In this document: in pieces, positions 37,870 to 55,934 of the stretch
Numbering within the stretch: position 1 is the stretch's first letter
Layout of the letters: each line of letters opens with the position of its first letter
Translations under genes and position numbers: made by a program
The notes under the pieces: model-generated
Seen by the model: only the letters and a program-made list of their open reading frames with translations
What the model was told of the DNA's origin: nothing
The model's database searches: none
Source: Burkholderiales bacterium
Lineage (GTDB): Bacteria; Pseudomonadota; Gammaproteobacteria; Burkholderiales; Burkholderiaceae_E
Reading direction: 5' to 3'
Assembly (NCBI GenBank): GCA_003577305.1
Contig: QEVL01000002.1
Location: forward strand, 62,001-126,000
Length of the DNA: 64,000 nt

Positions 37870-37945
<76 letters not shown>

Positions 37946-39568: not shown

Positions 39569-39579
39569 TTGCGCACTCC

Positions 39580-39849: not shown

Positions 39850-39876
39850 GGATTACCCCTTTGCCAGCGGTGCTCG

Positions 39877-40188: not shown

Positions 40189-40200
40189 CGTCTTGCCTGT

Positions 40201-40482
40201 TCAGTGGTGGTCCTGGTAGTCCACGAGCACGGCATCCGCGCCGTCGAACGCGAACGTCATGCGCCAGTTGCCGTTCACCCACACGGACCAGTGCCCGCGA
40301 AGGTTTCCCCCGCTCAGCGGATGCAGCCGCCAGCCCGGCACATTCATGTCATCGGGGCCGGCCGCTTCGTTCAGCCTGGCCAGCTGTCGCGCCAGTCTGG
40401 GCGCGTGGGCAGGCCGAATCCCCGCCTTGGAGCCGCGCTCGAAGAACGCCTGCAGCCCCTTGTGGCGAAACGACCTGATCAC
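40201..40482 (-). CDS. higB: HigB-type toxin (RelE superfamily mRNA interferase)
   Basis: The 93-aa protein has 'MIRSFRHKGLQAFFERGSKAGIRPAHAPRLARQLARLNEA' and the core 'GWRLHPLSGGNLRGHWSVWVNGNWRMTFAFDGADAVLVDYQDHH', all HigB/HicB-host-killer family hallmarks, including the terminal 'DYxDHH'. It would cleave translated mRNA when not bound by HigA. Intact and directly upstream of higA. Confidence 0.94.
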   Translation of the reverse strand: MIRSFRHKGLQAFFERGSKAGIRPAHAPRLARQLARLNEAAGPDDMNVPGWRLHPLSGGNLRGHWSVWVNGNWRMTFAFDGADAVLVDYQDHH

Positions 40483-40544
40483 GGCTCGAATGTATCGCGT
40501 AGCGTTACGAGTTGCAACGGCTGGAAAGCCAGTCAGTCGATCGG

Positions 40545-40730
40545 CTATCCACTACCCACCGCCCGCAGGCCGCCGGCCGCCGGCTTGGGTAGATCGATGC
40601 CGGCCTCGGTGAGGATCCAGACCTCGATGCGCTCGTGCCATGGCCGCAGCAGGTCCAGCGGGCGCGCCCGGTAGTGCTTTTCGGCGATCGCGCTGGGCTT
40701 GTGGCTCTGGAACCGCCTGACGGCCCATCA
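40545..40730 (-). pseudogene. Tyrosine integrase remnant (C-terminal about 60 codons)
   Basis: On the minus strand an open segment reads 'WAVRRFQSHKPSAIAEKHY', then R-A-R-P-L-D-L-L-R-P-W-H-E-R-I-E, and ends after '…TEAGIDLPKPAAGG'. This is the C-terminal end of phage-type integrases, with 'AEKHY' carrying the active-site tyrosine. A stop codon lies just upstream and no catalytic Arg/His boxes remain, so only the tail survives. Probably the scar of the element that brought in this region next to tRNA-Phe. Confidence 0.75.
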
Positions 40731-41124
40731 CCATCGGGAGATCGCGAACCTGAAGGGTCAGGCTGCCGCCTCGAAGCGGCAGATGATCGCACTGGAGAGG
40801 CAAGTGCGAAATGCCGGGGCGGCGCCGCAGGATCCAGCAGAATCGAAACGGATTCGGTTCATCCCCAAAGGGCTGGTTTCGACTCGCAAGCGCCTTGCTC
40901 TCTCCGCTGCCGACCTTGCGAAGATGATGGGCGTGTCTGCCCAGACGATCTACAACTGGGAGCGCGGCGTGACGAAGCCGGGGCGGGATCGGCTGGCGAA
41001 GTTGGCTTCCCTGCGAGGCGTTGGGAAGCGTCAGTTGCGAGCGCATTTCGCCGCCGGCCAGGCAGAAGAATGGCTCCGTCGCCGCTGGGGAGCTTGCCCT
41101 CGAAGCCATCGAGCAGTTGGCTGA
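40699..41124 (+). CDS. XRE/HTH-domain protein, probably 5' truncated
   Basis: About 141 codons from a TTG. The N-terminal coiled-coil-like part ('LKGQAAASKRQMIALERQVRNA') is followed by an HTH domain ('FIPKGLVSTRKRLALSAADLAKMMGVSAQTIYNWERGVTKPGRDRLAKLASLRGVGKRQ'). This resembles phage- or island-associated HTH proteins that normally have a longer N-terminus. The 5' end overlaps the integrase remnant, which suggests truncation by a rearrangement at about 40700. Start uncertain. Confidence 0.6.
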   Translation: MWLWNRLTAHHHREIANLKGQAAASKRQMIALERQVRNAGAAPQDPAESKRIRFIPKGLVSTRKRLALSAADLAKMMGVSAQTIYNWERGVTKPGRDRLAKLASLRGVGKRQLRAHFAAGQAEEWLRRRWGACPRSHRAVG

Positions 41125-41266
41125 GCAGCTTCACCTGTCGTTCGTTCGGCGGCGTAGTCGCCCAACGCTGCCAGAAGCGAGCCTTGGACAGCGCGGTGAC
41201 GTCCATCGACCGCTTCTGGGTCCTCTCCAGGATGTCGCAGTAGGCCTTGCGCTCCCGCTGGATCCC
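41084..41266 (-). pseudogene. Fic-family protein remnant
   Basis: A minus-strand segment reads 'RKAYCDILERTQKRSMDVT', jumps directly to 'LSKARFWQRWATTPPNERQ', then 'LLSQLLDGFEGKLPS'. These are C-terminal motifs of Fic/DUF4172-type proteins. About 20 residues normally between the two parts are missing, and the surrounding frame is shadow-like. No FIC catalytic motif (HxFx[D/E]GNGR) is present nearby, so this is decayed debris. Confidence 0.6.
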
Positions 41267-41351
41267 GGATGCCTGGCAGACGCGTGATTGTCGGCTGCCG
41301 CAGGCGCCGATGGCCCGCCAGGCGGTGCGCCGCTCGCGGAGACGCCGCGTG

Positions 41352-42544
41352 CTACTCCCGAACTTTCGGTGCCCGCCGCCTTTCCGGCGGCAACCACGCC
41401 GAGGCAGCGCGTGCCGGCCGCTGCAGGCGCAGGAACTCCACGGTGACCGTCGCGAGGCCCGCAGCGCAGGCCTTCGTCTCGACGGCGGCGCGAACCCGCT
41501 TGCGCACGAACGCCGGAATCCGCTCGAGCATCGCGCCTGCCGCCGGCTCCCACTCGATCCCCCGGCCTGCCTCGGCAACCGGCGGTAGCGGTTCCGGCTG
41601 CGCCGTCGCCGGCTTCACGTAGGTGCATTTCGGATCTTCACCCAGCAGGTTTCCGGAACCGGCCGCCCGAAGACCTCGCTCGTGTTCCAGATCACGGCCA
41701 GGCGCTCGCTGTTCAGGTCGCCGGCCACTTCCGGGATGTATGGACACGGGGTCACGCGCCCCTGTGGCGTGACGCGCAGGTACTCGCGCCCGGCCAGACA
41801 GGCGCTCGACCACGCCTCGTAGCCGTCGCGCGCCTCACCGGCGCGCAGCCCGAGGAGCCGCCGGGCGTACGGCGCGCAGCGCGCCCGGATGATGAGCTGC
41901 GGCCGCGCACGCTGGAGCTCGAGGATCTGCGCCAGTGTCCGCTCGTACAAGTGTTGCGGCATGTCGGTCTGAGTGACGCCGCGGCCGGTACACACCAGGA
42001 AGAAGAAGTTGAGCGCCAGCGCTCCGGCCTGCTGCGCGACCTCGGCGATGCCGGCGAGCTCATGCCGGTTGTCCGCGAGAAGCGTCGCCTGCACCTGCAC
42101 CGCGAGCCCGGCAGCGCGCGCGGCCCGCATCCCCGTCAGCGCGCCCCGCCAGGCGCCCGACCTGCCTCGCAGCCGGTCGTGAAAGCCGGGTGCCGCGGAA
42201 TCGAGGCTCACGCCGACCCCGGCTGCGCCTGCCTGCACCAACTGCCTGGCGCGATCGTCATCGAGCAACACGCCGTTGGTGCCGATCACCGGCATCAGTC
42301 CGACGGCTGCGGCCCGCGCCACGAGACCGACGAGATCGGCTCGCAGCAGCGGTTCTCCGCCGGTCAGCACGAGCATCGCGCCCGGAGCCGCCTCTGCGAT
42401 CTCGTCGATGACGCGCAGCGCGGCCTCGGTCGAGAGCTCTCCGGGTGCCTCGCTCTTCCTCTGCACCGCGTCCAGGTAACAGTGCCCGCAGGCGAGGTTG
42501 CAGCGCCGCGTGAGGTTCCAGGAAACGAGTTGTGGCGCCGACAT
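41352..42544 (-). pseudogene. Radical SAM protein with PCP_red tail, apparently frameshifted by deletion
   Basis: The first frame (42544 to 41615) encodes a radical SAM core: C-x3-C-x2-C at residues 15/19/22 ('RRCNLACGHCYLD'), 'LTGGEPLLRADL', and the later 'CLAGREYLRVTPQGRVTPCPYIPEVAGDL'. It then goes out of frame after 'IWNTSEVFG'. Another frame, from about 41666 to 41352, continues with 'AAGSGNLLGEDPKCTYVKP' and a PCP_red-like tail ('IEWEPAAGAMLERIPAFVRKRVRAAVETKACAAGLATVTVEFL'). In relatives the two parts are one protein joined by a cysteine-rich 'CGxCEYRxxCGGCRAR' segment, missing here. Last gene of the molybdoenzyme operon, four bases after the USP gene. Confidence 0.75.
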
Positions 42545-42547
42545 CGG

Positions 42548-43960
42548 TTACCGGAGCACTTCCCGGACGGCGTGCGAGGCGGCGTCGACGACCTCGGCGT
42601 CGACGCTGGCGCGCTGCATGCGCCGCGCGAGCTTCTCGATGCGCAGCCTGGCGTGCTCGCGCACGGCCTCCGGGACACCCGACAGGCGCTCGAGCGCGGC
42701 CAGCTCCCACGTGATCGGGGTGTCCGCTGCGTTGCCGGAGGCTTCCCGCGCCGCGACCTTGCCCGAGAACGGGCAGCACCCACCCGGCATTACGCCCATG
42801 ACTGCGTCGATCACGTCCGAGGTGACCACGGTGTGGCCTTCGCGTGCCGCGTGGCGCAGAATTGCGCTGCGTGCCATTCCGCGCGCGAATTCCGGCACAC
42901 GGCTGATGCGCTGCTCCGCTTCTTCGGTCCACGCGATGGTCGCTGCTGCGGTTTTCTCAACTGGCGGCTCGAAGCTTCGCGCGGAGACGAGCAGATTGCA
43001 TGACAGGCGTCGCAGCAGGTTCTCGGTCACGCTGCCAAGATCCATCGAGGTGTCCGAGTGCACACCGGTGCGACCGAGCACCAACAGCCATGGTCGAGCC
43101 TCGGCAGCGTAGCGCAGCAGTTGCTCGAAAGCCTTGCCGGCGACCAACCGCGTGGCGAGCACGGTTCCCGCCTCGCGCGCAAGAGCATCGGCGACCTCGA
43201 GATGGCCCTGGTAGATCTTCGCCAGCCCCGAATCGATGATCTCCTCGTGCAGTCGCTCCTGCTCTTTGAAACGGAACACGCTCGCTGCCTCGGTCGACAG
43301 GACCTTCGCGATGGAGTTGAATGCGACGTAGTGGAATTGCGGGTCGAATGCCGCGACCGCCTCGACCCGCCGGCCGAGGTGCTTGCCCAGTTCGATCGCT
43401 GTCATCAGGCCGCCGAACGACTGCGGACTGCCGTCGAGCGCCACGACGATCGCGCCCTCGCCGTCACTTTCGCCGGTGCGCATCACCAGCAGATCCCTGT
43501 CTATCCGGCGAGCGACGCGCTCGCAGACGCTGCCGATCTGGCTCGATTCGACCGCGCCCAGCCCGAGCGCGCCCATCACCACGAGGTCGGCGTCCGACGT
43601 GCCGATGTCCTCGACGAGTCGCTGCCAGTTCTTGCCCTCGAGGGCGACGCGCCGGTGCTCGATCCCGGCGCGCGTGCAGCGCTCCGAGAACACGTCGAGA
43701 TAGGAGTCCGAGATGACTTTCAGCCCGCGCGTGATGAGATCGTCGTGGATCACGCGTTGCTCGACGAGTTTATCCTCCTTGCGATACGGCTCCGGCAGGC
43801 CTCCCTCCATCTGTCGGAAGCGCCGGTCGTGCAGCCTCGCGGCATAGACGTGGCTGCCGGTTAGAAGCGCCCCGGTAGCGCCTGCGAGCTCGATCGCGAA
43901 ATCGAGCCCCACCAGCGACAGCGGCGAATTGTCCAGCGGCAGGTAGATGGAACGGTACAC
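42548..43960 (-). CDS. Tandem universal stress protein fused to PCP_red-like domains
   Basis: The 470-aa protein has two UspA domains (about 1-160 and 165-325), the second with an ATP-binding-like 'VLGRTGVHSDTSMDLGSVTENLLRR' loop. They are followed by two helical PCP_red-like modules: 'IAWTEEAEQRISRVPEFARGMARSAILRHAAREGHTVVTSDVIDAV' (about 345-400) and 'ITWELAALERLSGVPEAVREHARLRIEKLARRM' (about 410-450). Between them is 'MPGGCCPFSG' with paired cysteines. PCP_red modules also occur in protochlorophyllide reductase subunits; their role here is unknown. Operon context suggests maturation or protection of the molybdoenzyme. Translation begins three bases after the gamma gene ends. Confidence 0.85.
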   Translation of the reverse strand: MYRSIYLPLDNSPLSLVGLDFAIELAGATGALLTGSHVYAARLHDRRFRQMEGGLPEPYRKEDKLVEQRVIHDDLITRGLKVISDSYLDVFSERCTRAGIEHRRVALEGKNWQRLVEDIGTSDADLVVMGALGLGAVESSQIGSVCERVARRIDRDLLVMRTGESDGEGAIVVALDGSPQSFGGLMTAIELGKHLGRRVEAVAAFDPQFHYVAFNSIAKVLSTEAASVFRFKEQERLHEEIIDSGLAKIYQGHLEVADALAREAGTVLATRLVAGKAFEQLLRYAAEARPWLLVLGRTGVHSDTSMDLGSVTENLLRRLSCNLLVSARSFEPPVEKTAAATIAWTEEAEQRISRVPEFARGMARSAILRHAAREGHTVVTSDVIDAVMGVMPGGCCPFSGKVAAREASGNAADTPITWELAALERLSGVPEAVREHARLRIEKLARRMQRASVDAEVVDAASHAVREVLR

Positions 43961-43963
43961 GGA

Positions 43964-44986
43964 TCAGTCGCCCCGCCGCGCAGCCCGCTCGCGCAGCTTG
44001 CGCAGCCCTGCCATCTGCGCGGCAAACACTCCGGCGACGACAGCCACCGGCGCGAGCCAGGTCACGCTGCTGGTCGGCTGCTCCAGGCTGAGGAAGTACC
44101 AGGTAGAGACGGCCTTCTCGGCGCCACGCTCCTGCTTCGCGCCGTTCCATGCGGCGAAGGCAAACGGAACGGTCTTGCCGCGCGCGAAGCTGAATGCCTC
44201 CTGTGCACGCGGGATCGAGATCACGGTTCTCCACATGCCGTCCTTCCACTGCGCGTGCGACTCGCCGTCCTGCTCATCCGCAGGCACGGGTTCGAGGGTG
44301 CCGAATCCGTGCGCGATCAGTTTTTCGACCGCACGCTTCGATTGCAGCGCCGGGTCCGTCAGTGCATTGCCGGCCCACCAACTCGTAATGAACGCCTTGT
44401 CACCGCCCGATTTGCCATAATCGGTCGCCTCCGCGATCTCGCTCGCCGAGCGCGTGGAGAATGGATACCAGTCGACCGCCATGTCGGGGTACTTCTCGTC
44501 GACGTCGGGTGGGTTGTCCGCCGCCCAGTCGGACTTCCACTGGTAGATCACCACCGGCCGCTCGCGCTCGCCCATGCCGAAGAAGGGAATGCCCTTGGCC
44601 GGATCGTACGGAAACTCCAGCGCGATCGCGTCCCGGAACGCCTGCACGGCGCCCTTCATCACGTCCTGTTGGGCGTCGTGCCACGCGAGGCGTACGGCGA
44701 GGCGCTCTTCGCTGTAGAGGGCTCGCACCTCGATCGACTTCACGCCCGCTTCGTAGCGACGCGGCTTTACCACGGCCTGCGGTGCGAGCGGCACCTCGAG
44801 GACATCGGACTGCTGCCACGCCGGCGCGTCCGGATCGTCGGGAATCGCGTCCACCGGGCGTGCGAGCAGGCTGGCCTTCTCTGCCGCGCGCGCGTCGCGT
44901 GCCGGCAGTGCGAGCCAGCCGCCCAGCACGGCAAACGGCGCCGTCAGCCACGGACGGCGCCCGCGAATCGGTTCACGTGCGCTCAT
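43964..44986 (-). CDS. Haem-b-binding gamma subunit of type II DMSO-reductase-family enzyme
   Basis: The 340-aa protein is of the ethylbenzene-dehydrogenase-like gamma group (EbdC/DdhC/SerC/PcrC-like fold). The N-terminal signal or anchor ends 'ALPARDARAAE'. The two regions supplying haem ligands in relatives are visible: 'GIPFFGMGERERPVVIYQWKSDWAADNPP' (Met in GMG, Lys in WKSDW nearby) and 'WRTVISIPRAQEAFSFARGKTVPFAFAAWNGAKQERGAEKAVSTWYFL'. A C-terminal membrane helix ('VTWLAPVAVVAGVFAAQMAGL') anchors it, unlike the soluble relatives. It would pass electrons between the beta subunit and the membrane or cytochromes. It overlaps the delta gene by 14 bp. Confidence 0.87.
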   Translation of the reverse strand: MSAREPIRGRRPWLTAPFAVLGGWLALPARDARAAEKASLLARPVDAIPDDPDAPAWQQSDVLEVPLAPQAVVKPRRYEAGVKSIEVRALYSEERLAVRLAWHDAQQDVMKGAVQAFRDAIALEFPYDPAKGIPFFGMGERERPVVIYQWKSDWAADNPPDVDEKYPDMAVDWYPFSTRSASEIAEATDYGKSGGDKAFITSWWAGNALTDPALQSKRAVEKLIAHGFGTLEPVPADEQDGESHAQWKDGMWRTVISIPRAQEAFSFARGKTVPFAFAAWNGAKQERGAEKAVSTWYFLSLEQPTSSVTWLAPVAVVAGVFAAQMAGLRKLRERAARRGD

Positions 44987-45713
44987 GCATCACCTCGCAT
45001 CGGTCCCCGCCGGGGGGCACGCCGCAACTCTCCGCACAACCGTCCTCGGGCAGCTCGGGCGCCTCGTTGAGCCGCCCGCCCCCGGCGGGTCGCACACCAA
45101 GCCGCCGTGCTTCGGCGTCGACATAGTTCTCGAGCAGCTCGGCGAGAGTCGCGAAAAAACCCTTGCCTGCGACCGCGCGCAGCCGCCGCGCGAAGCCCCG
45201 CGACCAGACTCCGAGGTGCTCTCCGACGAACCTGGCCTGTGCGGCATTGCACTGCCGGATGCGATCGCTCCGGGCGGCGTGCGCCTCCTTCAGACAGAGG
45301 AATTCCATGAACTCCAGCTCGACGCTGACGTGATCGACGCGCTCGTGCAGTTCGGGCGCCGTCTGCAAACCGAAGGCGCGGTAGAAACCCGCGACGTCGG
45401 CGAGCGTGTGCGTCTTCTGGAACAGGTTCGCCTGGTCGTACTCGGCCTCGTAGGGTGGGCACTCCTTCGATATTGCGTAGCCGAAACACCGCACGTGCTC
45501 GGCGCGCCAGCGCTGCAGGGAGAGCCGCGCCAGGCAGGTGCGCAGCGCGCGCGCCCGTACGAGACTCGCTTCGTCGCCGACTTGGCCGAGGCAGGGTTCG
45601 AGCGCAGCGGCACGTTCGCGCAAGTTGCGCAGCGCCTGCCGACCGGGTTCGGCGAACGCCAGCGACAGCGTGCCGTAGACGCGGCTCCTGCAAAGAGCGC
45701 TGGCGGTCGTCAT
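44973..45713 (-). CDS. NarJ/TorD-like molybdoenzyme chaperone (delta)
   Basis: The 246-aa cytoplasmic chaperone has the all-helical TorD/NarJ fold: 'RVYGTLSLAFAEPGRQALRNLRERAAAL', 'CPPYEAEYDQANLFQKTHTLADVAGFYRAFGLQ' (the E-Y-x motif region) and 'RVDHVSVELEFMEFLCLKEAHA', the family signature. It would hold the alpha subunit until cofactor insertion before Tat export. It is not itself part of the enzyme. Overlaps beta by 4 bp and gamma by 14 bp. Confidence 0.9.
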   Translation of the reverse strand: MTTASALCRSRVYGTLSLAFAEPGRQALRNLRERAAALEPCLGQVGDEASLVRARALRTCLARLSLQRWRAEHVRCFGYAISKECPPYEAEYDQANLFQKTHTLADVAGFYRAFGLQTAPELHERVDHVSVELEFMEFLCLKEAHAARSDRIRQCNAAQARFVGEHLGVWSRGFARRLRAVAGKGFFATLAELLENYVDAEARRLGVRPAGGGRLNEAPELPEDGCAESCGVPPGGDRCEVMHERT

Positions 45714-46984
45714 ATCGAGTTGTAGTGCTTGTCGGCGCGCACGAGCCTGGGCTCCTCGACCGTCACGCGCGCGACCTCCTTACCGCTGCGCCCGTAGCCG
45801 ATCACGGTGTCGTTGTACATCTCCCACTTTTGACCATCCACGGTGGTCTCGAATACCTTCGGTCCCTGGACGATCTCGTGGCGGAAGATCACGGTCTGGC
45901 TCGCGCGAAACAGTTGCAACACCGCGAGCAGTTCACGCGAGGGCCGCGTGTAGCGCTCGATCGCCTCGTCGACACCCGGGCCGAACATCTGCCGCAGGTA
46001 TGCCCGCGGCACCCAGCGCGGCGGAATGTAATAGCCGTTCGGCTCGGTTCCGAACTGCGGATACAGGGGCAGCGCGACCTTCTCCACCTTGACGAGAAAG
46101 TAGAGCGGGTTGTCGCGCTGCTCGACCCAGGCACCGTCGGCGCCGATGCCCACCAGGCCCTGCATGCGAATCTTGCCGACGCAAGCCGCCATACAGCGCG
46201 TCTCCATCGGCTCGCCCTGCGTGAGTTCGTCCTTGCCCTCGATGCGCGGGTAGCAGGCGATGCACTTCTCCGAGACCCGCGTGGTGGCGCGGAACATCGG
46301 TTTCTTGTAGGGGCACGCGGCGACGCACTTGCGGTAGCCGCGGCAGCGCTTCTGGTCGATCAGGACGATCCCGTCCTCGCCCCGCTTGTAAATCGCCCGG
46401 CGCGGACAGGCGGCGAGGCAGGCAGGATAGGTGCAGTGGTTGCACAGCCGCTGCAGGTAGAAGAACCAGGTCGCGTGCTCGGGCAGCGCGGCCGGCTCGA
46501 GGTTGAGCGAGTCGCGCCGGTCCTTCGACCCGGTGGCGGTGTCCTCGTAGATGTTCGGAAATCGCCACTCCAGATCGGTTGGCTCGTAACCGAGAACGAC
46601 CGCGTCGCGCCGGTCGGCAGCACGCGCGGCCTCGAACACCGTCATGCCGTCGAAAACACCGTACGGCCGCGTCTTCGACTCTTTCTTCGAGGCATCCCAG
46701 ACCGCCTCGCGGCCCGCCTTCTGGTGGGCGCCGTCGAGCAGTTCGAGCAGCCGCGTATCCCAGAACTGGGGATAACCGCCATAGGGCTTGGTCTCGACGT
46801 TGTTCCACCACATGTACTCCTGCCCCTTGGAGAAAGTCCACGTGGACTTGCAGGCCATGGTGCAGGTCTGGCAGGCGATGCAGCGGTTGATGTTGAAGAC
46901 GAACGCGAACTGCTCGCGCGGGTGCGCTTCGCGGTACGGGTACTCCATCGACCGACCCAGCTGCCAGTTGTAGACCTTAGGCAT
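45710..46984 (-). CDS. Four-cluster iron-sulfur beta subunit (NarH/PcrB/NxrB-like)
   Basis: The 424-aa electron-transfer subunit. Four cysteine groups are visible: 'NRCIACQTCTMACKSTW' (C35, C38, C41, C45), 'CNHCTYPACLAACPRRAIY', 'RCRGYRKCVAACPYKKPMF', and 'CIACYPRIEGKDEL…ETRCMAACVGKIR'. That is the NarH arrangement of three [4Fe-4S] and one [3Fe-4S] or [4Fe-4S] cluster. No signal peptide, so it should be exported together with the Tat-tagged alpha subunit. Close in layout to PcrB, DdhB, SerB and NxrB; these cannot be separated by eye. Confidence 0.93.
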   Translation of the reverse strand: MPKVYNWQLGRSMEYPYREAHPREQFAFVFNINRCIACQTCTMACKSTWTFSKGQEYMWWNNVETKPYGGYPQFWDTRLLELLDGAHQKAGREAVWDASKKESKTRPYGVFDGMTVFEAARAADRRDAVVLGYEPTDLEWRFPNIYEDTATGSKDRRDSLNLEPAALPEHATWFFYLQRLCNHCTYPACLAACPRRAIYKRGEDGIVLIDQKRCRGYRKCVAACPYKKPMFRATTRVSEKCIACYPRIEGKDELTQGEPMETRCMAACVGKIRMQGLVGIGADGAWVEQRDNPLYFLVKVEKVALPLYPQFGTEPNGYYIPPRWVPRAYLRQMFGPGVDEAIERYTRPSRELLAVLQLFRASQTVIFRHEIVQGPKVFETTVDGQKWEMYNDTVIGYGRSGKEVARVTVEEPRLVRADKHYNSI

Positions 46985-47231
46985 CGCGGCCGGCTCCCAT
47001 CCATTGCACGCGAACCTCGTCGATCAGCGCACGGATCCTCTGCTCGCCCAGCGCGCTTGCGAGCCCGTGCGTCGCGCGATAGCACGGGCGCTCGAACAGC
47101 AGCGCAATGCGCCGCTCGTCCCAGCCGAGCAGCAGATACTCCTCGATCAGGCAGCGCGCCATTTCCGCCGGATCGGCGGGCAGGGCCACGCCGACGAGTT
47201 CCATCGGGTCGCCGCACTCTGCGGGTTTCAT
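46977..47231 (-). CDS. Small protein between alpha and beta genes (84 aa)
   Basis: It begins at an ATG overlapping the alpha stop (ATGA), with GGAG upstream, and its end overlaps the beta start by 8 bp, so it is part of the translational chain. The sequence is helical ('PADPAEMARCLIEEYLLLGWDERRIALLFERPCYRATHGLASALGEQRIRALIDEV') and without membrane segments. I do not recognise a family. An extra small gene sits between alpha and beta in some nitrite-oxidoreductase operons (nxrX), but homology to it is not claimed. Confidence 0.75.
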   Translation of the reverse strand: MKPAECGDPMELVGVALPADPAEMARCLIEEYLLLGWDERRIALLFERPCYRATHGLASALGEQRIRALIDEVRVQWMGAGRDA

Positions 47232-50200
47232 TCGCCCGCTCCTTTCACCTTGACTACACCGCCGGCGAGATAGCGGGCGGTGAACGCGCTCTCGTGCGCC
47301 GGCGAGTGCCCGCTCGTTGCCGGCTCCCACACACCTTTGCCGTCGAGCCCCCCGGGTTCGGCCTTCCGGATGCGAACCAGCGTCTCCTTGGGCACCGTGT
47401 TCACCGCGTGGTTGTCGACGTCGAAACCGAACACGAAACCCATCGTCCCGGTCTTCTTGTGAAACAGGCTGTCGGTCTGGTGCATCGGCGGTGCCCAGCC
47501 GCGCGTCACGCTCTGGTGCGAGCCGTAGCGGAAGTTCGACTGGTAACCGGTGTCGGACGCGAGCGTCCGCCTGTCGGGCCGCGTCTCGTGCGCCTTGACC
47601 GTGCGCTCGCTCGCGATCCAGGCGCTGTGCTTGGTCATGACGACGTTGTACGGGTAGGCCGGGTTGTACTTCACCCGCGTGAGCAGGCGAAACGCCTTGT
47701 AGCGCGGGTCGGAGTCCTTCCAGCCGGCGTACGGCCGGTCAACGGGGTTGGCGTCGACGTAGATGTAGTCGCCGTCCTCGATGCCGAGGTCCTTCGCCGC
47801 CTCCGGATTCATATGCACCTGCCAGTCGCCCACGCCGGGGCTGCGCGGCTCCATGCGGTACGGGTCGCCGAAGTTGGTGCTCCATATCCAGTTCCAGTCC
47901 ACCGTCGCCCACGACGAGTGCGTCGTGTGCCTGCTCTTCGGAGTCATGCAGAAGAAGCGGTAACCCTCCTCCCACAGCGGGTTCTTCGTCTTCTTCACTT
48001 CCTTCCAGGCGAGCTTGTTGTTCGCCACCGCGCGCAGGTCGGCGTCCAGGGTCTTCGCCTGCAGCATCTGCGGCGTCACGCCGAAGTTGTTCGGCCGCAC
48101 GAACCGACTCGTCGAGACGATGACTCCCGGCAGATAGGGGGTTGCCTCCGGAGCCTCGCGGTGCACAACGAGGTTCTCGCCGTACTCGATCGCCTCGGGA
48201 ATGTCCGTGTAGGCATTCAGCCGCCCTGTGTCGGTGTAGAAAGGCACGCTGTCGTGGACCTGCTCGTAGAAAGCCACCCGCGGGTACGAGCGGAACAGCA
48301 ACAGCGCGGCACCCGGTTCGCCGTACTTGCCGGCCAGGATGTCGTCGACCCGGTAGCCCTGCGTGGTGCAACTGGCATCGAGCACGCGCTGGATGTACAC
48401 CTCGGGCTTGCCTTCCAGCATGAACTTCCAGTAGTCGCGGAAGCGCCGGTCGCCGGTGAGCCCGGCGAGCTTTTCGGCGACGAGGGCGAAAATCATGCCG
48501 TCGTCCATGGAGTCGTACAACGGCTTGATCCCGTCGCCGCCCCAGATCTGCAGGAACGGATTCGAGCACGAGACGCCGCACTCGCGCGTCTGGAATTCGA
48601 GCCAGGTGTTGGCCGGCAGGACGACGTCGGCGTATTCGGCCGAGCCGGTCCACTCCACCTGCTGATCGATGATGCAGTCGATCTTCGGGTTGACGTTCAC
48701 CAGGAGGTGGTAGATCCACTTCGCCTGGTTCATCAGGTTCGCGTTGTTGTACCACATGAGCTTCGTCGGGCTCGGCATGTGGGTCTTGCCGGTGAAATTC
48801 CTTCGCCCTGCCGGCGTGTCGACGATAAACGGCCGCTCCCCGAAACCCCAGTAGCTCATCTCCTCGCCGTGCAGCAGTTCGCGAACGTTCTCCCGGCCGA
48901 TCTTCGCCTTCGGGTCGAGCACCGGCTTGAACGGGTCCTCTTCGACGTAAGCGCCGCCCACGCCCGGGCCCGACCACAGCGAACCCTGGAAGAGCGCCCC
49001 CTTGTAGTTGCCCGCCCAGGTGTGCGCGCCCGAACCGGGGATGCCGATGCTGCCCACGAGCATCAGCGGCAGGCATACCGCGCGGTTGTGCAACGTGGCG
49101 TGGAAGTAGTGGTTGATGCCCTCGCCGTAGTGGATCGCGATCGGGTAGGCTTCGCGCGGCTTGCCCTTGTAGTCCGGATCCCAGAAGCGGCGGCCGAAGT
49201 CCTTCGCCAGGCGCTCGAGCAGTTCCTTCGGCGCGCCGCAGATCTCGTGCACCGTGTCGATGTCGTAGTCGCGCAGGTGCTCCCGGTACATCTCCCAGAC
49301 CGTCATCGCCTCGACCTGCCTGCCGTCGACGAGGCGCACCGTGCCCTTCCAGTCGAGCCGCGGTTCGATGCCCTGCGCGCCGACGTGCCTGCCGACGTCG
49401 TCGCGGCTGATCGGCCTCGGGCCACCGGAGCTCTGGTCCCAGACGACGAAGTCGCCGATGCGATCGCGCTGCTCGGCGGTGAGTCCGTGAATGGTGACTC
49501 CCGGTCCCCTGGACAGATCCCGGTTGCGATATCCGGCGATGATGTCCTGCGGCTTCAGCCGCTCGAGCGTATCGGTGCGCACGAGGAGCGGGAAATCGGT
49601 GAACTGCCTCACGTACGCCTCGTCGTACCAGCCCTTCTCCATCAGGTAGCGGGTAACGAAGAGGAAGATCGAGGTGTCCGAGAGCCCGGGGCGTACCGAG
49701 ATCCAGTAGTCGGCCTTGCTCGCCGAAGGGCTGTACTCCGGCGCGATGACCGCGATGCGCCCACCGCGCTCGATGATCTCGGTGAGCCAGTGCGCCTCGG
49801 GCATCTTGTTCTCGATCAGGTTCTTGCCTACCTGCACGGTGAACCGTGTGAAGCGCAGGTCGTTCAAATCGATGTCGGAGGTCTGCAATCCGTGCACGAA
49901 CGGCTGCCCGGGCGCCTGATCGCCACGCCAGGTGTATTCGGACCACTCGCGCCCGCCCTTCGCCTTGTCCGGCCCCACCTTGCGCACGTGCGCGTCGAGC
50001 AGGCCGAGCATGTTGGCCATGCGGAAAGTCCCGAACTTGCCGATGACGCCGTGCGGCGGCAGCGAACTGCCGAGCTTCATGGTGCGCGTGCCCGCCTCCT
50101 CCCAGTGCTCGAGCATCTCCTGTGGATAGCCGTCGTTCTTCACCAACCGGCGTCTGCCGTCCTCGCCGCTGTACGTGCGCGCGATCGCAATGAGCGCCTT

Positions 50201-50764
50201 GGCGACGTAGGTCGTCGCTTCGTCCCACGAGACCCGCTCGAAGGAATCAGTGCCGCGTGCGTCGAAGCGGTACTGGCTGCGCAGCTTCGGGTCGTCCGAC
50301 AGCGACGGGAAACCCGCATCGGCCCACTGCTTCCAGCCGCTTCGGAGCATCGGACCCTTCGCGCGGTGCGGCCCGTACACGCGCCGGTGCATCGTGAACC
50401 CCTTCAGGCACATGCGCGGATTCCATGCCGCTGTCGCCTGGTTGCCGTAGAGATCCTTGTAGCGGTGATGGTCGTAGTTCTGCTCGAGCCGCGTCACGAT
50501 CCCGTTGCGGACAAACGCGCGCACGCGGCACATGTGTGTGTCGTTGGGCGCACAGATGTAAGTGAAGCTGCGCTCATAGGCGTACTGGTTGCGGTACACC
50601 TCTTCCCAGTCGCGCTCCGGATAGTGCTCGAGCGGATTGTCGATGCCCGGGACCGCGACCAGGGTTCGACCCGCAAACGCCGGTGCTGCAGCACCCAGCC
50701 CGGCGAGCAGGCCGCCCGCGCCCGCGGCGTGCGTCAGGAATTGCCGGCGCGTGACCTTGCCCAT
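47228..50764 (-). CDS. Tat-exported molybdopterin oxidoreductase alpha subunit (type II DMSO reductase family)
   Basis: A 1178-aa Mo-bisPGD enzyme. The twin-arginine signal is T-R-R-Q-F-L-T, with cleavage near residue 31, so it acts in the periplasm. The Fe-S region is 'YICAPNDTHMCRVRAFVRNG' with C71, C79 and C119 ('NPRMCLKG'); His77 lies between. The likely molybdenum ligand is Asp282 in 'YTWRGDQAPGQPFVHG'. 'VGKNLIENKMPEAHW' and 'YNNANLMNQAKWIYH' are shared with the PcrA/DdhA/SerA/NxrA clade rather than with cytoplasmic NarG. Possible substrates include nitrate/nitrite, chlorate/perchlorate, selenate or an organic compound; the sequence alone does not decide. Operon partners are the beta, gamma and delta subunits and two cytochromes. 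Confidence 0.92.
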   Translation of the reverse strand: MGKVTRRQFLTHAAGAGGLLAGLGAAAPAFAGRTLVAVPGIDNPLEHYPERDWEEVYRNQYAYERSFTYICAPNDTHMCRVRAFVRNGIVTRLEQNYDHHRYKDLYGNQATAAWNPRMCLKGFTMHRRVYGPHRAKGPMLRSGWKQWADAGFPSLSDDPKLRSQYRFDARGTDSFERVSWDEATTYVAKALIAIARTYSGEDGRRRLVKNDGYPQEMLEHWEEAGTRTMKLGSSLPPHGVIGKFGTFRMANMLGLLDAHVRKVGPDKAKGGREWSEYTWRGDQAPGQPFVHGLQTSDIDLNDLRFTRFTVQVGKNLIENKMPEAHWLTEIIERGGRIAVIAPEYSPSASKADYWISVRPGLSDTSIFLFVTRYLMEKGWYDEAYVRQFTDFPLLVRTDTLERLKPQDIIAGYRNRDLSRGPGVTIHGLTAEQRDRIGDFVVWDQSSGGPRPISRDDVGRHVGAQGIEPRLDWKGTVRLVDGRQVEAMTVWEMYREHLRDYDIDTVHEICGAPKELLERLAKDFGRRFWDPDYKGKPREAYPIAIHYGEGINHYFHATLHNRAVCLPLMLVGSIGIPGSGAHTWAGNYKGALFQGSLWSGPGVGGAYVEEDPFKPVLDPKAKIGRENVRELLHGEEMSYWGFGERPFIVDTPAGRRNFTGKTHMPSPTKLMWYNNANLMNQAKWIYHLLVNVNPKIDCIIDQQVEWTGSAEYADVVLPANTWLEFQTRECGVSCSNPFLQIWGGDGIKPLYDSMDDGMIFALVAEKLAGLTGDRRFRDYWKFMLEGKPEVYIQRVLDASCTTQGYRVDDILAGKYGEPGAALLLFRSYPRVAFYEQVHDSVPFYTDTGRLNAYTDIPEAIEYGENLVVHREAPEATPYLPGVIVSTSRFVRPNNFGVTPQMLQAKTLDADLRAVANNKLAWKEVKKTKNPLWEEGYRFFCMTPKSRHTTHSSWATVDWNWIWSTNFGDPYRMEPRSPGVGDWQVHMNPEAAKDLGIEDGDYIYVDANPVDRPYAGWKDSDPRYKAFRLLTRVKYNPAYPYNVVMTKHSAWIASERTVKAHETRPDRRTLASDTGYQSNFRYGSHQSVTRGWAPPMHQTDSLFHKKTGTMGFVFGFDVDNHAVNTVPKETLVRIRKAEPGGLDGKGVWEPATSGHSPAHESAFTARYLAGGVVKVKGAGE

Positions 50765-50768
50765 CGCG

Positions 50769-51545
50769 CTACTCCCTGCGCGGCTCGAATCCGCTCGCGC
50801 GGTAGATGTACAGGATCACCTTCCACGCCTCCTCCGACGTGAAGTCGTTCAGGTGCAGCGTCGAGGCGTCGGGCTCCGAGTCGCCCGCGGTCCACTTGGG
50901 CATCGCGCTGTCGAACTGGTTCTGGATGCCGCCGATCGTGAGGCGCCAGTAGACGTACGGCAGGGTCAGCTGTCCGATCGTGCCGGCGTCGGTGAAATCC
51001 GCCGGACGGATGGGATAGCGAAACCCCTCGGCCGCGACTCCCTGGCCGTCGAGTTTCTCGCCGTGGCAGATCGCGCAGTTCGCGTCGTACAGGCGTTTGC
51101 CCGCATCGATGTCCTCGGTGCGCCACTTCGCCGGATCGGCGGCCCAGGCCGGCACGACCACGCGCTTGAGCACCTCCTCGCCGACCGTCGGATGGCGCTG
51201 GAAGATCTCCACCGGCGGCGCGTAGGTCGGGCGTAGCGCGTCGTAGACCAGCCAGCCGAGCACCAGCGGAAGGACGGCCAGCAGCGCCCAGCGCTGAGCG
51301 CGCAGCGCGCGCGGCTCGTCCGCCGGCGTTTCGAGGAAGAACTCCATGAAGCGGCCGATGCGCCGATCGTCCAGAGTCACGTGGATCACCGCGCCTGCGA
51401 TCGCAAAGCCCATGTACAGCAGGATCACGCTGCGCGGGATTACCGGCCGCACCAGCTCGAGCAGCACATAGATCGCCGCCACCACCAGCACCACGCCGGT
51501 CGGCAACGGCACGTTGCGACGCCAGGACTCAGCGAGACGGTTCAC
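50769..51545 (-). CDS. Membrane-anchored mono-haem cytochrome c
   Basis: A 258-aa protein, starting at the GTG that overlaps the preceding stop (GTGA). Three membrane helices (about 16-34, 38-57 and 88-104) precede a periplasmic cytochrome c domain with C-A-I-C-H at 157-161 ('RLYDANCAICHGEKLDGQGVAAEGFRYPIRPADFTD') and likely Met ligand in 'DSAMPKW'. The rest is class I-like. It lies four bases before the molybdoenzyme alpha start and would pass electrons between it and the di-haem cytochrome or the bd-like subunit. Confidence 0.9.
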   Translation of the reverse strand: MNRLAESWRRNVPLPTGVVLVVAAIYVLLELVRPVIPRSVILLYMGFAIAGAVIHVTLDDRRIGRFMEFFLETPADEPRALRAQRWALLAVLPLVLGWLVYDALRPTYAPPVEIFQRHPTVGEEVLKRVVVPAWAADPAKWRTEDIDAGKRLYDANCAICHGEKLDGQGVAAEGFRYPIRPADFTDAGTIGQLTLPYVYWRLTIGGIQNQFDSAMPKWTAGDSEPDASTLHLNDFTSEEAWKVILYIYRASGFEPRRE

Positions 51546-52360
51546 GACTTCCTCCCGGCCAGGTAATCGACGAGCAACTTCAGTTGCGCCGCATTGAGTC
51601 TCGCGCCGTAGTCCTGCGGCATGACGCCCGACGGATAGTCCTTCGCCTCGTAAGCCTTCGGGTCGACGATGGACTCGACCAGGAACGCCTCGACGCTCAT
51701 GCTGCGCGCCGCCGCGGCCTGCCTGAGGGCCTCCGCGTCGAGGCTCGGACCGAGCACTTTCTTGCCCGCCTCGAGGCTGTGGCAGCCGGCGCACCCGAGC
51801 GAGTCGAACAGCGCCCGAGGGTCGGGATCCGTAGCTGCAGCCGCGGCAGGCGCGGCGGGCGCGCCGGACGGACGCGGAACGTCGCCGATCTTCACCGACG
51901 GTCTGCCGCCCAACGACTGCAGATAGTCGACGACCGCGACGACCTCCTCGTAACCCAGTTTCGCAGGCGCCGAAGTCGACGCCGGCATGATGTTGCTGAA
52001 ACCCTCGACCACGTACGCCCCCGGTTCGTAGAGCGACTGCACCAGGTACTCGACGAGAGTCCCGGGTCCGCCCTGCACTCCGCTCGCGCGACGCAGGGCG
52101 ACCTCGGCGAGGTTCGGTCCGCGACCCCCGCCCTTGACGCCTGCTCCGGGTTCGATCGTGTGACAGGTCATGCAGCCACGCTGGCGAACCAGCGTCTCGC
52201 CCTGCACGGCGAGTTCGGCCGGCGTCATGCTCTCGGTGATCGCGAGCTTTTGCGGCGGCTGCCAGCGTGTCTGGGGAATCCAGTTGGCGAACCAGACGAA
52301 GAAGCCGACGACGATCACTGCCGGCAGCACCGGTGCGCCATAGGCGGTGAGGCTCTTCAC
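51542..52360 (-). CDS. Membrane-anchored di-haem cytochrome c
   Basis: A 272-aa protein with GTG start overlapping the stop of the bd-like gene. N-terminal membrane helix (about 9-27, 'APVLPAVIVVGFFVWFANW'). Two c-type haem sites are C-M-T-C-H (63-67) and C-A-G-C-H (about 190-194). The A/P-rich linker between the domains contains 'RPSGAPAAPAAAAATDPDP'. Each domain has the typical end ('EEVVAVVDYLQSLGG', 'AAQLKLLVDYLAGRK') and a likely axial Met ('NIMPAST', 'GVMPQDY'). Probably the electron carrier linking the bd-like subunit with the mono-haem cytochrome. Confidence 0.92.
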   Translation of the reverse strand: MKSLTAYGAPVLPAVIVVGFFVWFANWIPQTRWQPPQKLAITESMTPAELAVQGETLVRQRGCMTCHTIEPGAGVKGGGRGPNLAEVALRRASGVQGGPGTLVEYLVQSLYEPGAYVVEGFSNIMPASTSAPAKLGYEEVVAVVDYLQSLGGRPSVKIGDVPRPSGAPAAPAAAAATDPDPRALFDSLGCAGCHSLEAGKKVLGPSLDAEALRQAAAARSMSVEAFLVESIVDPKAYEAKDYPSGVMPQDYGARLNAAQLKLLVDYLAGRKS

Positions 52361-54138
52361 TGCGGCTCCTCGTACGGAGCGATCTCGGCGAGCGTGCGCT
52401 CGTCGGTGCGGTGCGCCATCCCGGCGATCAGGAACGCCACCGCGAGCAGCGCGAAGAAGATCGCCGTGATCAGCGTGACGACGAATGCCGCCTCGCCGAG
52501 GGCAGGGAGTCCGGCCCCGGACGAGGTGTCTTCGAGGATGCCGAACACGTGCCAGTTCAGCCGCGCGCCGCTGCGCGCATAGCCCATCAGGCCCATCAGC
52601 CACACGATTACAACCGCGAGCAGTACGAGCACGTACTGGCCGCGGCGCGGCATCGTTCCCCAGCGCGCGGCGGCGACGGTCGTGGCGCCGCGCAGCAGTG
52701 CGTGGTCTAGAAGGAAAGTCACGACGATGCCGCCGATCAGGACGTAGATCTGCCAGATGGAGGTCTTGATGCGGATGTGCGCCGGAGCGAAATAGCCGTA
52801 GATGCCGAGCGCCGCGATCGTGAGCGCCATCAGGCCGACCAGCCCCCACTCCACGGCCGTGCCGGTGCGCGCCCACGCGACGGCCGGCACGCGCCCGGCG
52901 CGGCGGTACAGCAGATAGCTCGCATACAGCACCACCAGCACCAGCGTCACCGCGATCATCTTCGGCGCCATCACGCCGAGCGCGCCGAGCACGGGGTGAA
53001 AGCCGCCGGTGGATTCCTCGATGCTCGCGGCCATCGTGTGCGGGGTCGCCCACACGGCGAAACCGGCGATCAGCAGCACGTTGAACACCGCGCTCCAGCG
53101 CTGCTGGGCCTCCGAGCCGGGGATGCGCAGCAGGCCGAGCCATGAGTAATACGCCGCGCCGATGAACAGCACCGCGATCACGATCGCCTGGATGATGAAC
53201 AGCCACGACAGCACGCCACCCATCAGCGTCACGCCGTAGGTGGCCGAGAACGCGAACAGCTCGAAGCCGAAGTAGTAGCCGGCGAACGGCAGGAAGAGCA
53301 TCGTGAAGAGCGCGATGAGGTTTCCGGTGTAGCCCATCCAGTCGTACAGAGCGCGCTCGCGTGCATCGCCGCTCAGCAGCAGCCGGTATGCCGCGTAGGC
53401 CGAACAGAGCAGCGCGCCGAAAGTGACGTTGGCCACCAGGCGGTGGATGTTCAGCGGCATCCAGCCCGGATTCCACACCGCGTCGTGCAGGCTCACGAGG
53501 GCGCCGCGTTCGTCGACGCCGGCGGGCGTCATCATGTAGGTGGCCCAGGCGTCGGCGATGAACATGACGATCGTGCCGAAGACGTTGAGCAGAAGGCCGA
53601 GCAGCAGGTGGATCCACTTCGAGTCGCCCTGCCACCGGTGCCAGCCGTAGTACCAGAAGTAGAGGCACAGCGTCTCGGCAACGAAGAACAGGGGATAGAC
53701 CACGAAAGTCGGGCCGAACACGCCAGTCAGGTGGCGCATCACCTTCGGGTATGCCGCGAACAGCACGAACCCGAGAAGTGCGCCAGTGATGGCGGTGAGC
53801 GAATAGGCGACCGGCAGCAGGCTCGCCATCTCGTGCGCGAGCCAATCGTAGCGACGCGACGCGACGCGGTCGGTCGACCTGGCACGCCAGCCGAGAAACT
53901 CGATCAGCAGCGCGAACATCGGCACCGCGAGCACGAACGCGGCGAATTCCAGGTGCAGTTGCGCGGCAATCCACACCGCGAGACGGCTGTCGACGCCGGT
54001 GACGGCCGGGTACTCGGCCGACTCGGGCGCCTGCGCCAGCGCGGCGCCGCAGGCAAGGGCCACGATGGCCGCGAGCGCCGACGTTGCACCGCGGCGCGGG
54101 GCAAGCTTCGTCACCTTCGGGAACGAGCGATGGATCAT
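52357..54138 (-). CDS. Cytochrome bd-oxidase-like subunit I, first gene of the operon
   Basis: The 593-aa polytopic membrane protein (about 13-14 helices) is related to CydA. The ATG at 54138 gives a signal-like N-terminus ('ALAAIVALACGAALAQ'). The first core helix 'VWIAAQLHLEFAAFVLAVPMFALLIEFLGW' has a histidine at the position of the CydA haem-b595-like ligand. 'VYPLFFVAETLCLYFWYYGWHRW' and 'LNIHRLVANVTFGALLCSAYAAYR' (another His) follow the CydA pattern. The Q-loop is not evident and no CydB gene is present, so quinol oxidase activity is doubtful. With the two cytochromes c it may be a cytochrome-linked bd-like electron acceptor or oxidase, as reported in nitrite oxidisers. A sigma-54 promoter lies 35 bp upstream. 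Confidence 0.82.
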   Translation of the reverse strand: MIHRSFPKVTKLAPRRGATSALAAIVALACGAALAQAPESAEYPAVTGVDSRLAVWIAAQLHLEFAAFVLAVPMFALLIEFLGWRARSTDRVASRRYDWLAHEMASLLPVAYSLTAITGALLGFVLFAAYPKVMRHLTGVFGPTFVVYPLFFVAETLCLYFWYYGWHRWQGDSKWIHLLLGLLLNVFGTIVMFIADAWATYMMTPAGVDERGALVSLHDAVWNPGWMPLNIHRLVANVTFGALLCSAYAAYRLLLSGDARERALYDWMGYTGNLIALFTMLFLPFAGYYFGFELFAFSATYGVTLMGGVLSWLFIIQAIVIAVLFIGAAYYSWLGLLRIPGSEAQQRWSAVFNVLLIAGFAVWATPHTMAASIEESTGGFHPVLGALGVMAPKMIAVTLVLVVLYASYLLYRRAGRVPAVAWARTGTAVEWGLVGLMALTIAALGIYGYFAPAHIRIKTSIWQIYVLIGGIVVTFLLDHALLRGATTVAAARWGTMPRRGQYVLVLLAVVIVWLMGLMGYARSGARLNWHVFGILEDTSSGAGLPALGEAAFVVTLITAIFFALLAVAFLIAGMAHRTDERTLAEIAPYEEPQ

Positions 54139-54172
54139 CCGAAAAGCTCGCGTCCAATGCCTCTCGACCGAA

Positions 54173-54187
54173 GCAACATCCGGACCA
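54173..54187 (-). promoter_or_regulatory. Sigma-54 promoter of the molybdoenzyme operon
   Basis: On the minus strand, TGGTCCGGATGTTGC has GG and GC exactly 10 bp apart; the -12 part TTGC is perfect and the -24 part (TGGtcCG) matches 5 of 7 consensus bases. Transcription would start near 54161, 23 bases before the bd-like gene. A sigma-54-dependent activator gene is encoded nearby (58010-59401). Confidence 0.75.
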
Positions 54188-54229
54188 GATCTGCACGCAG
54201 CTTCGTCCGGGAAGACAAGCGGCCCAGGC

Positions 54230-54246
54230 TTGAACAAAGTGTTCAA
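54230..54246. promoter_or_regulatory. Inverted repeat 1, likely activator-binding site
   Basis: A perfect palindrome TTGAACA-AAG-TGTTCAA, centred at 54238, about 77 bp upstream of the predicted start. It shares the core GAAC-N-AAG-N-GTTC with the repeat at 54273. Likely enhancer for the NtrC-like response regulator. Confidence 0.7.
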
Positions 54247-54272
54247 CCTGACACGCTGACGACCCACGCGCA

Positions 54273-54287
54273 GGAACGAAGCGTTCC
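54273..54287. promoter_or_regulatory. Inverted repeat 2, likely activator-binding site
   Basis: A perfect palindrome GGAACG-AAG-CGTTCC, centred at 54280, with the same core and same central AAG as the first repeat. The centres are 42 bp apart, about four DNA turns, so both sites face the same side of the helix. Confidence 0.7.
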
Positions 54288-54330
54288 AGGCCAGGCGGCG
54301 CTCCTTCACGGAGCATGGCGGGTTTACCGC

Positions 54331-54346
54331 TGGCACGGTTTCTGCC
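54331..54346 (+). promoter_or_regulatory. Possible second sigma-54 promoter facing hemG
   Basis: On the plus strand, TGGCACGGTTTCTGCC has a perfect -24 (TGGCACG) and a weaker -12 (cTGC) with correct 10-bp spacing between GG and GC. It lies 128 bp upstream of the hemG-type gene and could serve the divergent hemG-kinase-regulator unit. Confidence 0.5.
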
Positions 54347-54473
54347 GCTGCGCGGAAGATGAACAACCCGTCGGGTTTCGATCGGAGTCGGAAGTGGACT
54401 GTCTCGCTCGTCAGGGTCGGATCGGCAAGCGCGTTTCACCGACCATGACCATCCCGAATGGCAGGCGCAACGC

Positions 54474-55907: not shown

Positions 55908-55934
55908 GCGATCGTCTTTCGGCTGGAATCCGCC

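Follow-up and report, generated by a model that had tools for sequence, protein, structure and literature searches.

Virtually all nitrate in nature is made by nitrite oxidoreductase (NXR). The NXR set described in 2013 for Kuenenia, Nitrospira and Nitrospina (PMC3578206) includes alpha, beta and gamma subunits and a TorD-like chaperone, with an accessory set of a mono-haem cytochrome c, a di-haem cytochrome c and a bd-like oxidase that has 14 predicted helices and no quinol loop. Here we describe a locus of similar make-up in a 64,000-nt stretch of a Burkholderiales bacterium (GCA_003577305.1, contig QEVL01000002.1, positions 62,001 to 126,000), termed the window, in which ten chained minus-strand genes (54138-41615) probably encode, as judged from sequence, a periplasmic NXR with its own chaperone and electron chain. 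All the genes of the 2013 set named above have counterparts here, the bd-like oxidase with the same number of predicted helices and the same lack of a quinol loop, but the window's genes form one tight proteobacterial operon, to which genes for a radical SAM protein, PCP_red proteins and a protoporphyrinogen oxidase (PPO) and a sigma-54 promoter element are attached. The cupredoxin, zinc-finger protein and multicopper oxidase of the 2013 set gave no Pfam match in the ten operon proteins, a search that did not extend to the host genome.

Several other systems stand close to this operon. The NXR-ABC complex of Kuenenia (PDB 7b04; PMC8387239) has the same molybdenum (Mo) and iron-sulfur (Fe-S) ligands, including the unusual Asp on cluster FS0, and the same gamma haem-b ligands; it was isolated from the soluble fraction, whereas the window's gamma carries a predicted C-terminal membrane segment. 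The NXR of Candidatus Nitrotoga (PMC6050957) is likewise betaproteobacterial, periplasmic and found with a Calvin cycle, but its alpha belongs to a different clade. Published work places the bd-like proteins found in Nitrospinota and Nitrospirales in the OR-N family of CydA-like oxygen reductases, which are thought to oxidise cytochrome c, lack a quinol site and occur in NXR-bearing organisms (PMC10839748, PMC12342949); the window's protein is likened to them by its features, and no second CydA-like paralogue was detected in the host by PF01654. PRO3 and six other metagenome-assembled genomes (MAGs) from a partial nitritation-anammox reactor carry periplasmic nxr genes, given there as of unknown direction (Palomo et al. 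2022, PMC9306079), and PRO3, which is most likely the genus-mate G014 (locus L046), combines an NXR of the nitrite-oxidiser/anammox group with a Calvin cycle and hao-like genes, as in the window's kin; the passages on these MAGs deal with neither an operon nor a bd-like gene, cytochromes or regulation. Such nxr genes have also been reported from Planctomycetota and diverse groundwater taxa (PMC10732223, PMC9562985), and in a floodplain NXR genomes were commoner than those for earlier nitrification steps, with nxrAB highly transcribed and Betaproteobacteria dominant in the core microbiome (PMC8141241). Among the matches listed in the open-licence PMC literature there was no account of the present operon, an absence that is not proof. 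As far as our searches show, the kind of enzyme is known and the unit is new, namely one proteobacterial operon with a sigma-54 element and haem genes in an island-like position near a tRNA-Phe gene.

Identity of the catalytic subunits

The alpha subunit (47228-50764, minus strand) is by its sequence of the periplasmic NXR kind, the Nitrospira/Nitrospina/anammox type, with a predicted nitrite-oxidising activity. Compared by phmmer with all solved structures, its 1178 aa matched Kuenenia stuttgartiensis NXR-A (7b04_B, 1148 aa) over the full length with 1611 bits, at 58% identity over the part compared, whereas the next-best family was reached by the perchlorate reductase PcrA chain with 143 bits; the EbdA chain scored 110 bits. 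The Kuenenia paper names Asp275, Asn70 and Asp71 in alpha and Met155 and Lys305 in gamma (PMC8387239). In the window, alpha Asp282 aligns with Asp275 (Mo), Asn74 aligns with the substrate-site Asn70 and Asp75 with Asp71 (FS0 cluster), and the FS0 cysteines Cys71, Cys79 and Cys119 are kept. The beta subunit (45710-46984, minus strand, 424 aa) scored 639 bits against Kuenenia NXR-B, and 15 of its cysteines align with cysteines of that four-cluster Fe-S subunit when compared by eye. The haem-b gamma (43964-44986, minus strand; membrane segment at residues 308-326) scored 76.7 bits against NXR-C, its Met138 and Lys291 standing at the haem ligands Met155 and Lys305. In total, 23 of 23 cofactor and active-site residues checked on the three subunits were kept. 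Alpha begins with a Tat-type (twin-arginine translocation) sequence, MGKVTRRQFLTHAAG, with the motif TRRQFL, as judged by eye. The initial annotation's view of a periplasmic type II molybdoenzyme is borne out, and nitrite, which it had given as an example, is the leading candidate substrate.

A reductase or dehydrogenase for another substrate, such as perchlorate, chlorate, selenate, dimethyl sulfide or ethylbenzene, would share the type II superfamily with NXR, and alpha did match the superfamily model TIGR03479 with 287 bits. This score is, however, far below the cut-off of 985, the PcrA and EbdA scores are small beside that of NXR-A, and the PcrA and EbdA chains measure 899 and 976 aa where alpha has the length of NXR-A. 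We therefore hold another substrate class to be very improbable, a judgement for which SerA, ClrA and DdhA were not among the sequences compared.

An alpha tree of 89 rows, rooted on the host NarG and made by quick search with Shimodaira-Hasegawa-like approximate likelihood-ratio (SH-aLRT) support and no bootstrap, placed the window among 23 proteobacterial rows, including two identical pairs, that form a clade with an SH-aLRT of 100. This clade is nested in a group holding anammox and Nitrospinota NxrA, in a tree that contains no Nitrospira (Nitrospirota) row, and four Nitrotoga-like rows fall outside the group. A second tree omitting L042, whose alpha does not match its neighbours, and the long branches L002 and L118 gave the like result. 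Identity to the window's alpha was 59-60% in 12 anammox-side rows, 59-61% in L104/L105/L094, 37-41% in the four Nitrotoga-like outgroup rows of the same order and 28% in the host NarG. The alpha tree suggested in the initial annotation thus groups the enzyme with anammox and Nitrospinota NXR, apart from Nitrotoga-like rows and NarG. A Nitrotoga-type NXR was rejected on the identity of 37-41% and on the Mo motif Y-4x-D-11x-QM, which ends in QT in the window; among the four outgroup rows the QM ending is shown by L118 alone.

Layout and recurrence of the operon

Open reading frame calls and Pfam placed all ten genes where the initial annotation had them, in the same order and on the same strand, and its product names agreed with Pfam and NCBIfam. 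The order is bd-like subunit, di-haem cytochrome c, mono-haem cytochrome c, alpha, a small protein termed 's', beta, chaperone, gamma, a double USP domain plus PCP_red protein and a radical SAM protein, with spacings of -4, -4, +4, -4, -8, -4, -14, +3 and +3 bp, so that the reported chaining by 0-5 bp describes most junctions but not the two larger overlaps of 8 and 14 bp. The TorD/NarJ-type chaperone (delta; 44973-45713) scored 86 bits with PF02613, above its cut-off, and 92.6 bits with TIGR03482, below the cut-off of 152.3. The USP-PCP_red protein (42548-43960) was named by Pfam, and the radical SAM/SPASM protein (41615-42544) is nearest to the NirJ2/AhbD haem-synthesis families, with 236 bits to TIGR04055 and 206 bits to TIGR04545, both below cut-offs of 500. 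An eleventh gene lies inside the annotated interval, a small PCP_red protein (41352-41618, minus strand; PF08369 48.4 bits, cut-off 32.5) that would have 88 aa if its start is the GTG at 41618.

The same gene order recurs in loci labelled Alpha-, Beta- and Gammaproteobacteria, as a genome search proposed with the initial annotation found, and because of this recurrence it is far beyond chance. From an alignment search with alpha, 80 of 181 relatives were kept, and 20 named proteobacterial loci, without L055 and L064, were scored. All 20 carry alpha. Each of the genes for 's', beta, delta, gamma and the radical SAM protein was present in 19, and each of the bd-like, di-haem, mono-haem and USP-PCP_red genes in 17; where a gene is missing, the locus breaks off within the operon or close by. 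Seven stretches or contigs (L039, L041, L042, L044, L046, L140 and L143) end in or near the operon and are not scorable for all genes. The locus labels cover Burkholderiales, Burkholderiaceae, Ideonella, other Betaproteobacteria, Gammaproteobacteria, Hyphomicrobiaceae, Rhodobacteraceae and Alphaproteobacteria. Two arrangements were seen. In the first, a divergent PPO gene lies upstream, with the kinase and regulator where the stretch reaches them, and USP-PCP_red is either divergent or, as in the window, within the operon; in the second, USP-PCP_red is within the operon and PPO follows the radical SAM gene. The operon was found in three of the 18 genomes of the window's genus (G000, the host, G005 and G014), and among 399 sampled genomes of the order, the window's included, the close type occurred in five and a Nitrotoga-like type in four.

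The alpha of L042 (2873-6400) is only 69% identical to the window's in the best segment and groups with Nitrospinota/Elusimicrobiota, whereas the adjoining bd and beta genes share 84% identity with those of the window, which suggests a recombinant or an assembly chimera. NC10 bacterium CSP1-5 (L084, 10001-23430) has two tandem NXR-like alpha-beta pairs, their alphas 61% and 40% identical to that of the window.

The bd-like subunit and its cytochromes

The 593-aa product of the first gene (52357-54138, minus strand) matched PF01654 with 57.9 bits across residues 51-291, and comparison with the CydA profile gave a probability of 95.9 and an E of 5e-8 over residues 44-593, weak in the middle. All ten Foldseek matches at E<=0.001 were cytochrome bd chains; the AlphaFold model behind them is poor (predicted local distance difference test, pLDDT, only 53.9) and served fold naming only, residues being mapped by profile alignment. 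By the same rule, the protein has 14 hydrophobic segments, the first signal-like, and E. coli CydA eight, and five of its segments lie within residues 268-404, whereas E. coli CydA has none between 239 and 387, the quinol-loop region. In the profile alignment His62, His232 and Glu155 fall on E. coli His19, His186 and Glu107, and these three residues are invariant in 16 bd-like sequences; the position of E. coli Met393 was not placed on the protein by this alignment. For this subunit, whose modelling had been proposed, the model and the alignments thus gave a bd fold, two aligned haem-ligand histidines and, by the segment count, membrane segments in place of the quinol loop, with a poor model and Met393 unplaced.

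The membrane segments occupy the place of the CydA quinol loop, so that no site of quinol entry can be seen. Pfam found no CydB among the operon proteins, the host genome not being searched for it, and the earlier remark that the subunit lacks an adjoining CydB partner holds; such an absence is expected for this kind of bd-like protein, which has no quinol loop (PMC3578206). A canonical cytochrome bd quinol oxidase was accordingly rejected. In the host genome, with a completeness of about 91%, the operon gene is the only match to Cyt_bd_oxida_I (PF01654); the same search matched 19 of 20 genomes and missed the bd gene of G005, though it is present there.

The two genes that follow encode a membrane-anchored di-haem cytochrome c (51542-52360, minus strand, 272 aa; CMTCH at 63 and CAGCH at 190, Pfam Cytochrom_C, one N-terminal hydrophobic segment) and a mono-haem cytochrome c (50769-51545, minus strand, 258 aa; CAICH at 157, three N-terminal membrane segments, Pfam), the two CxxCH motifs in the first and one in the second being as initially annotated. 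When 13 genomes from other groups were searched with the bd alignment, six matched, and in five of these, Kuenenia hertensis, Brocadia pituitae, NC10 bacterium CSP1-5, a Sulfuricaulis MAG and a Nitrospina MAG, the bd-like gene headed a run with di-haem c, mono-haem c and gamma-like genes. In the anammox stretches L167 (7567-16703) and L168 (6887-16002) the order is bd-like, di-haem c, mono-haem c, haem-b/c, tetrahaem c, mono-haem c and USP-PCP_red.

As the same run or a partial set recurs in other groups, the "added" cytochrome and bd-like genes belong to the NXR system and are not an oddity. The statement that relatives usually have alpha, beta, delta and gamma only does not apply to the nearest ones, the NXR of Nitrospina, Nitrospira and anammox bacteria, which carry the same extra genes; the reading of the cytochromes and bd-like subunit as a likely electron chain is upheld, the same set being conserved there.

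The small protein 's' and the haem-related genes

The 84-aa protein 's' (46977-47231, minus strand) is a four-helix protein (AlphaFold pLDDT 90.5) with no Pfam or NCBIfam family match and no solved-structure fold match at E<=0.001. It lies between alpha and beta in 63 of the 66 loci, out of 80, that have beta within 1.5 kb of alpha, across many phyla, and is a candidate for an overlooked NXR maturation or subunit protein.

The PPO gene (54474-55907, plus strand; TIGR00562 197 bits, above the cut-off of 97.85) diverges from the operon, and in 21 of the 27 stretches examined a homologue is found close to the operon, L141, L142 and L143 being repeats of L029, L030 and L046. Small PCP_red homologues follow the radical SAM gene in related loci. 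USP-PCP_red homologues lie after the bd clusters of L167 and L168. Five loci of the Brocadiaceae side (L090, L096, L097, L098 and L102) also have them close to NXR genes; there a gamma-like gene and USP-PCP_red precede gamma-beta-delta-alpha, with a mono-haem c as well in L096, L097 and L102. A radical SAM gene of the NirJ2/AhbD kind, PCP_red domains and PPO also accompany NXR in the Sulfuricaulis MAG (L064). Together, the radical SAM, PCP_red and PPO genes look like a tetrapyrrole-tailoring cassette.

A conserved sigma-54 element

A -24/-12 type promoter element, TGGTCCGGATGTTGC, occupies 54173-54187 on the minus strand, its TGG-N8-TTGC beginning 49 bp before the bd start codon. All 12 loci that share the window's arrangement carry this pattern upstream of bd, and none of the seven with the other arrangement does, in a search with the plain consensus of the 400 bp (218 bp in L140) before the first aligned bd residue. 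From the pattern density 0.025 sites are expected per region, or about 0.3 in 12, and shuffling yielded 0.48 on average and at most three in 12; the split into 12 and seven loci was drawn after the arrangements were seen, and the closer pattern variant was likewise picked after the per-locus scores. The support for the element comes from this conservation across loci, because a first scan of the whole window (up to three mismatches) gave 198 sites against 298 expected, below chance; when each locus was scored against shuffles, its best site was in most cases not significant. Beside the operon lie a PAS sensor histidine kinase (55935-58013, plus strand; Pfam) and an NtrC-type response regulator (58010-59401, plus strand) that carries the sigma-54 interaction domain (PF00158 220 bits) with PF00072 and HTH_8. 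A kinase or regulator is present in ten of the 12 loci, the stretch ending too soon in L028 and L140. The sigma-54 control claimed initially is thus supported by the element and the adjoining pair (55935-59401). Control by sigma-54 and NtrC-type regulators is common in nitrogen-oxide respiration.

Predicted function and direction

Besides the operon, the host has a true NarG (TIGR01580 2193 bits, cut-off 1084), six haem-copper oxidase-family matches, a RuBisCO large subunit (NF003252 790 bits, cut-off 438) and one hao-like gene (PF13447), to which NCBIfam, searched at 1e-20, gives a single match, hydrazine dehydrogenase with 115 bits (far below the cut-off of 900). Hao-like multihaem genes occurred in eight of the 20 genomes searched, and, among five genus members, in all three with NXR and neither of two without, too few for a conclusion. 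A cluster of two haem-copper oxidase-like genes and a cytochrome b-ferredoxin-reductase fusion (contig C30; L139, 5586-16587), which some genomes have at a distance of about 16-43 kb from the operon, was considered as an NXR partner and dropped because its fusion gene, whole or split, occurs in 15 of the 18 genus genomes, with or without NXR.

In the function we consider probable, alpha and beta would be exported together by the Tat system, and nitrite would be oxidised to nitrate outside the membrane, with protons released there. Electrons would pass from alpha over the Fe-S clusters to the gamma haem b, then through the membrane cytochromes c to the bd-like protein and/or host haem-copper oxidases, and finally to oxygen. 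The kinase-regulator pair would most likely sense nitrogen oxides or redox state and activate the operon via sigma-54, and in RuBisCO-bearing hosts nitrite-driven growth may be possible. The weakest step is the last assignment, in which the radical SAM, PPO and PCP_red proteins may make or tailor haem for the chain.

The most likely direction is oxidation, since the chain runs over cytochromes c, shows no visible quinol entry and stands in a host that already has NarG. Run in reverse, the enzyme would reduce nitrate in the periplasm at low oxygen, with electrons from the membrane cytochromes. Low oxygen would fit the origin of several hosts in groundwater and of one, most likely, in a partial nitritation-anammox reactor, and the sigma-54/NtrC control would suit such respiration. 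However, the host's NarG leaves no obvious need for another nitrate reductase, membrane segments replace the quinol loop in the bd-like protein, and cytochrome c is probably of high potential and suited to accept electrons from nitrite. On balance we regard the reverse direction as unlikely.

Alternatively, nitrite would be oxidised as proposed while the bd-like/cytochrome module relays electrons to the quinone pool or other carriers (reverse flow) and haem-copper oxidases, of which the host has family genes, reduce oxygen; this differs from the preferred chain in the last step only. The homologous module in anammox genomes would fit such a relay, and the Nitrospina paper calls a canonical role of the bd-like protein unlikely without another quinol site and names reverse electron transport as one option (PMC3578206). 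Against it, the two aligned haem-ligand histidines are invariant in the 16 sequences, and the family is treated as putative cytochrome c-oxidising oxygen reductases (PMC10839748, PMC12342949). A relay is conceivable, but we lean away from it.

Several observations weigh against the proposed nitrite-to-oxygen chain. The residues aligned with E. coli Glu99 and Glu445 are replaced, by Tyr148 and Ser523, which would also suit a relay. The bd, c and c genes occur in anammox bacteria too, which are anaerobes, and an oxygen-reducing role is thus not to be assumed; because these bacteria have the bd-like protein, the main chain is least certain at the link where that protein would act as terminal oxidase. 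Kuenenia NXR also reduces nitrate in vitro, with artificial partners at a Vmax above that of nitrite oxidation (PMC8387239), and since it runs both ways, sequence cannot fix the direction, which the authors of two studies left open for such MAGs (PMC10732223, PMC9306079). The alphas of L042, L055 and L064, although proteobacterial by label, fall outside the 23-row clade, elsewhere in the group. The haem-tailoring idea draws on gene company and family names, and both radical SAM scores lie below cut-off. Finally, all three NXR-bearing genus members have RuBisCO matches (PF00016, E below 1e-130), but four members without NXR have one of like strength, and RuBisCO as a specific NXR partner was rejected; it occurred in ten of the 20 distinct genomes searched, and therefore autotrophy is not general.

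An island-like setting

A tRNA-Phe gene is located at 37870-37945. To the left of the operon, similarity to the fetched parts of the G005 chromosome ends at 37982, while a block comprising the operon, PPO, kinase, regulator and a helix-turn-helix (HTH) gene (40717-59402) is 88-96% identical to a G005 stretch 1.9 Mb away. The interval 37870-40700 beside the block holds this tRNA gene and then a stretch unlike the fetched G005 parts, with small HigA/HigB-like genes named by eye. No repeat of the tRNA-Phe end that could serve as an attachment site was found within 104 kb, and no integrase was identified among the few proteins scanned by Pfam. Its place and patchiness suggest that the block is probably mobile between hosts.

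The presence of the operon in only three of 18 genus genomes could also arise if it had been binned from another organism. However, it lies inside a 3.7-Mb contig in G005 and inside 1.0- and 2.7-Mb contigs in L028 and L043, and its guanine-cytosine content of 67.3% is close to the 67.7% of the window. Because of these megabase contigs we discount a binning error almost entirely.

Implications

Taken further, a transferable island may let ordinary Proteobacteria with facultative autotrophy oxidise nitrite while escaping the standard markers, even in a reactor reported to be free of nitrite oxidisers; with a hao-like gene, the path could run from hydroxylamine to nitrite to nitrate, and the bd-like protein might use purpose-made haem from the radical SAM, PCP_red and PPO proteins. 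We offer this extended scheme tentatively, as a possibility rather than an expectation.

For anammox NXR, whose structure is known, mutational studies have been called impossible for want of genetic tools (PMC8387239). The compact eleven-gene version of Burkholderiales, Rhodobacteraceae and Hyphomicrobiaceae could be moved to a tractable relative, where the direction, the electron path and the role of the bd-like protein could be tested. If the proposed function is true, surveys of wastewater and groundwater may count too few nitrite oxidisers.

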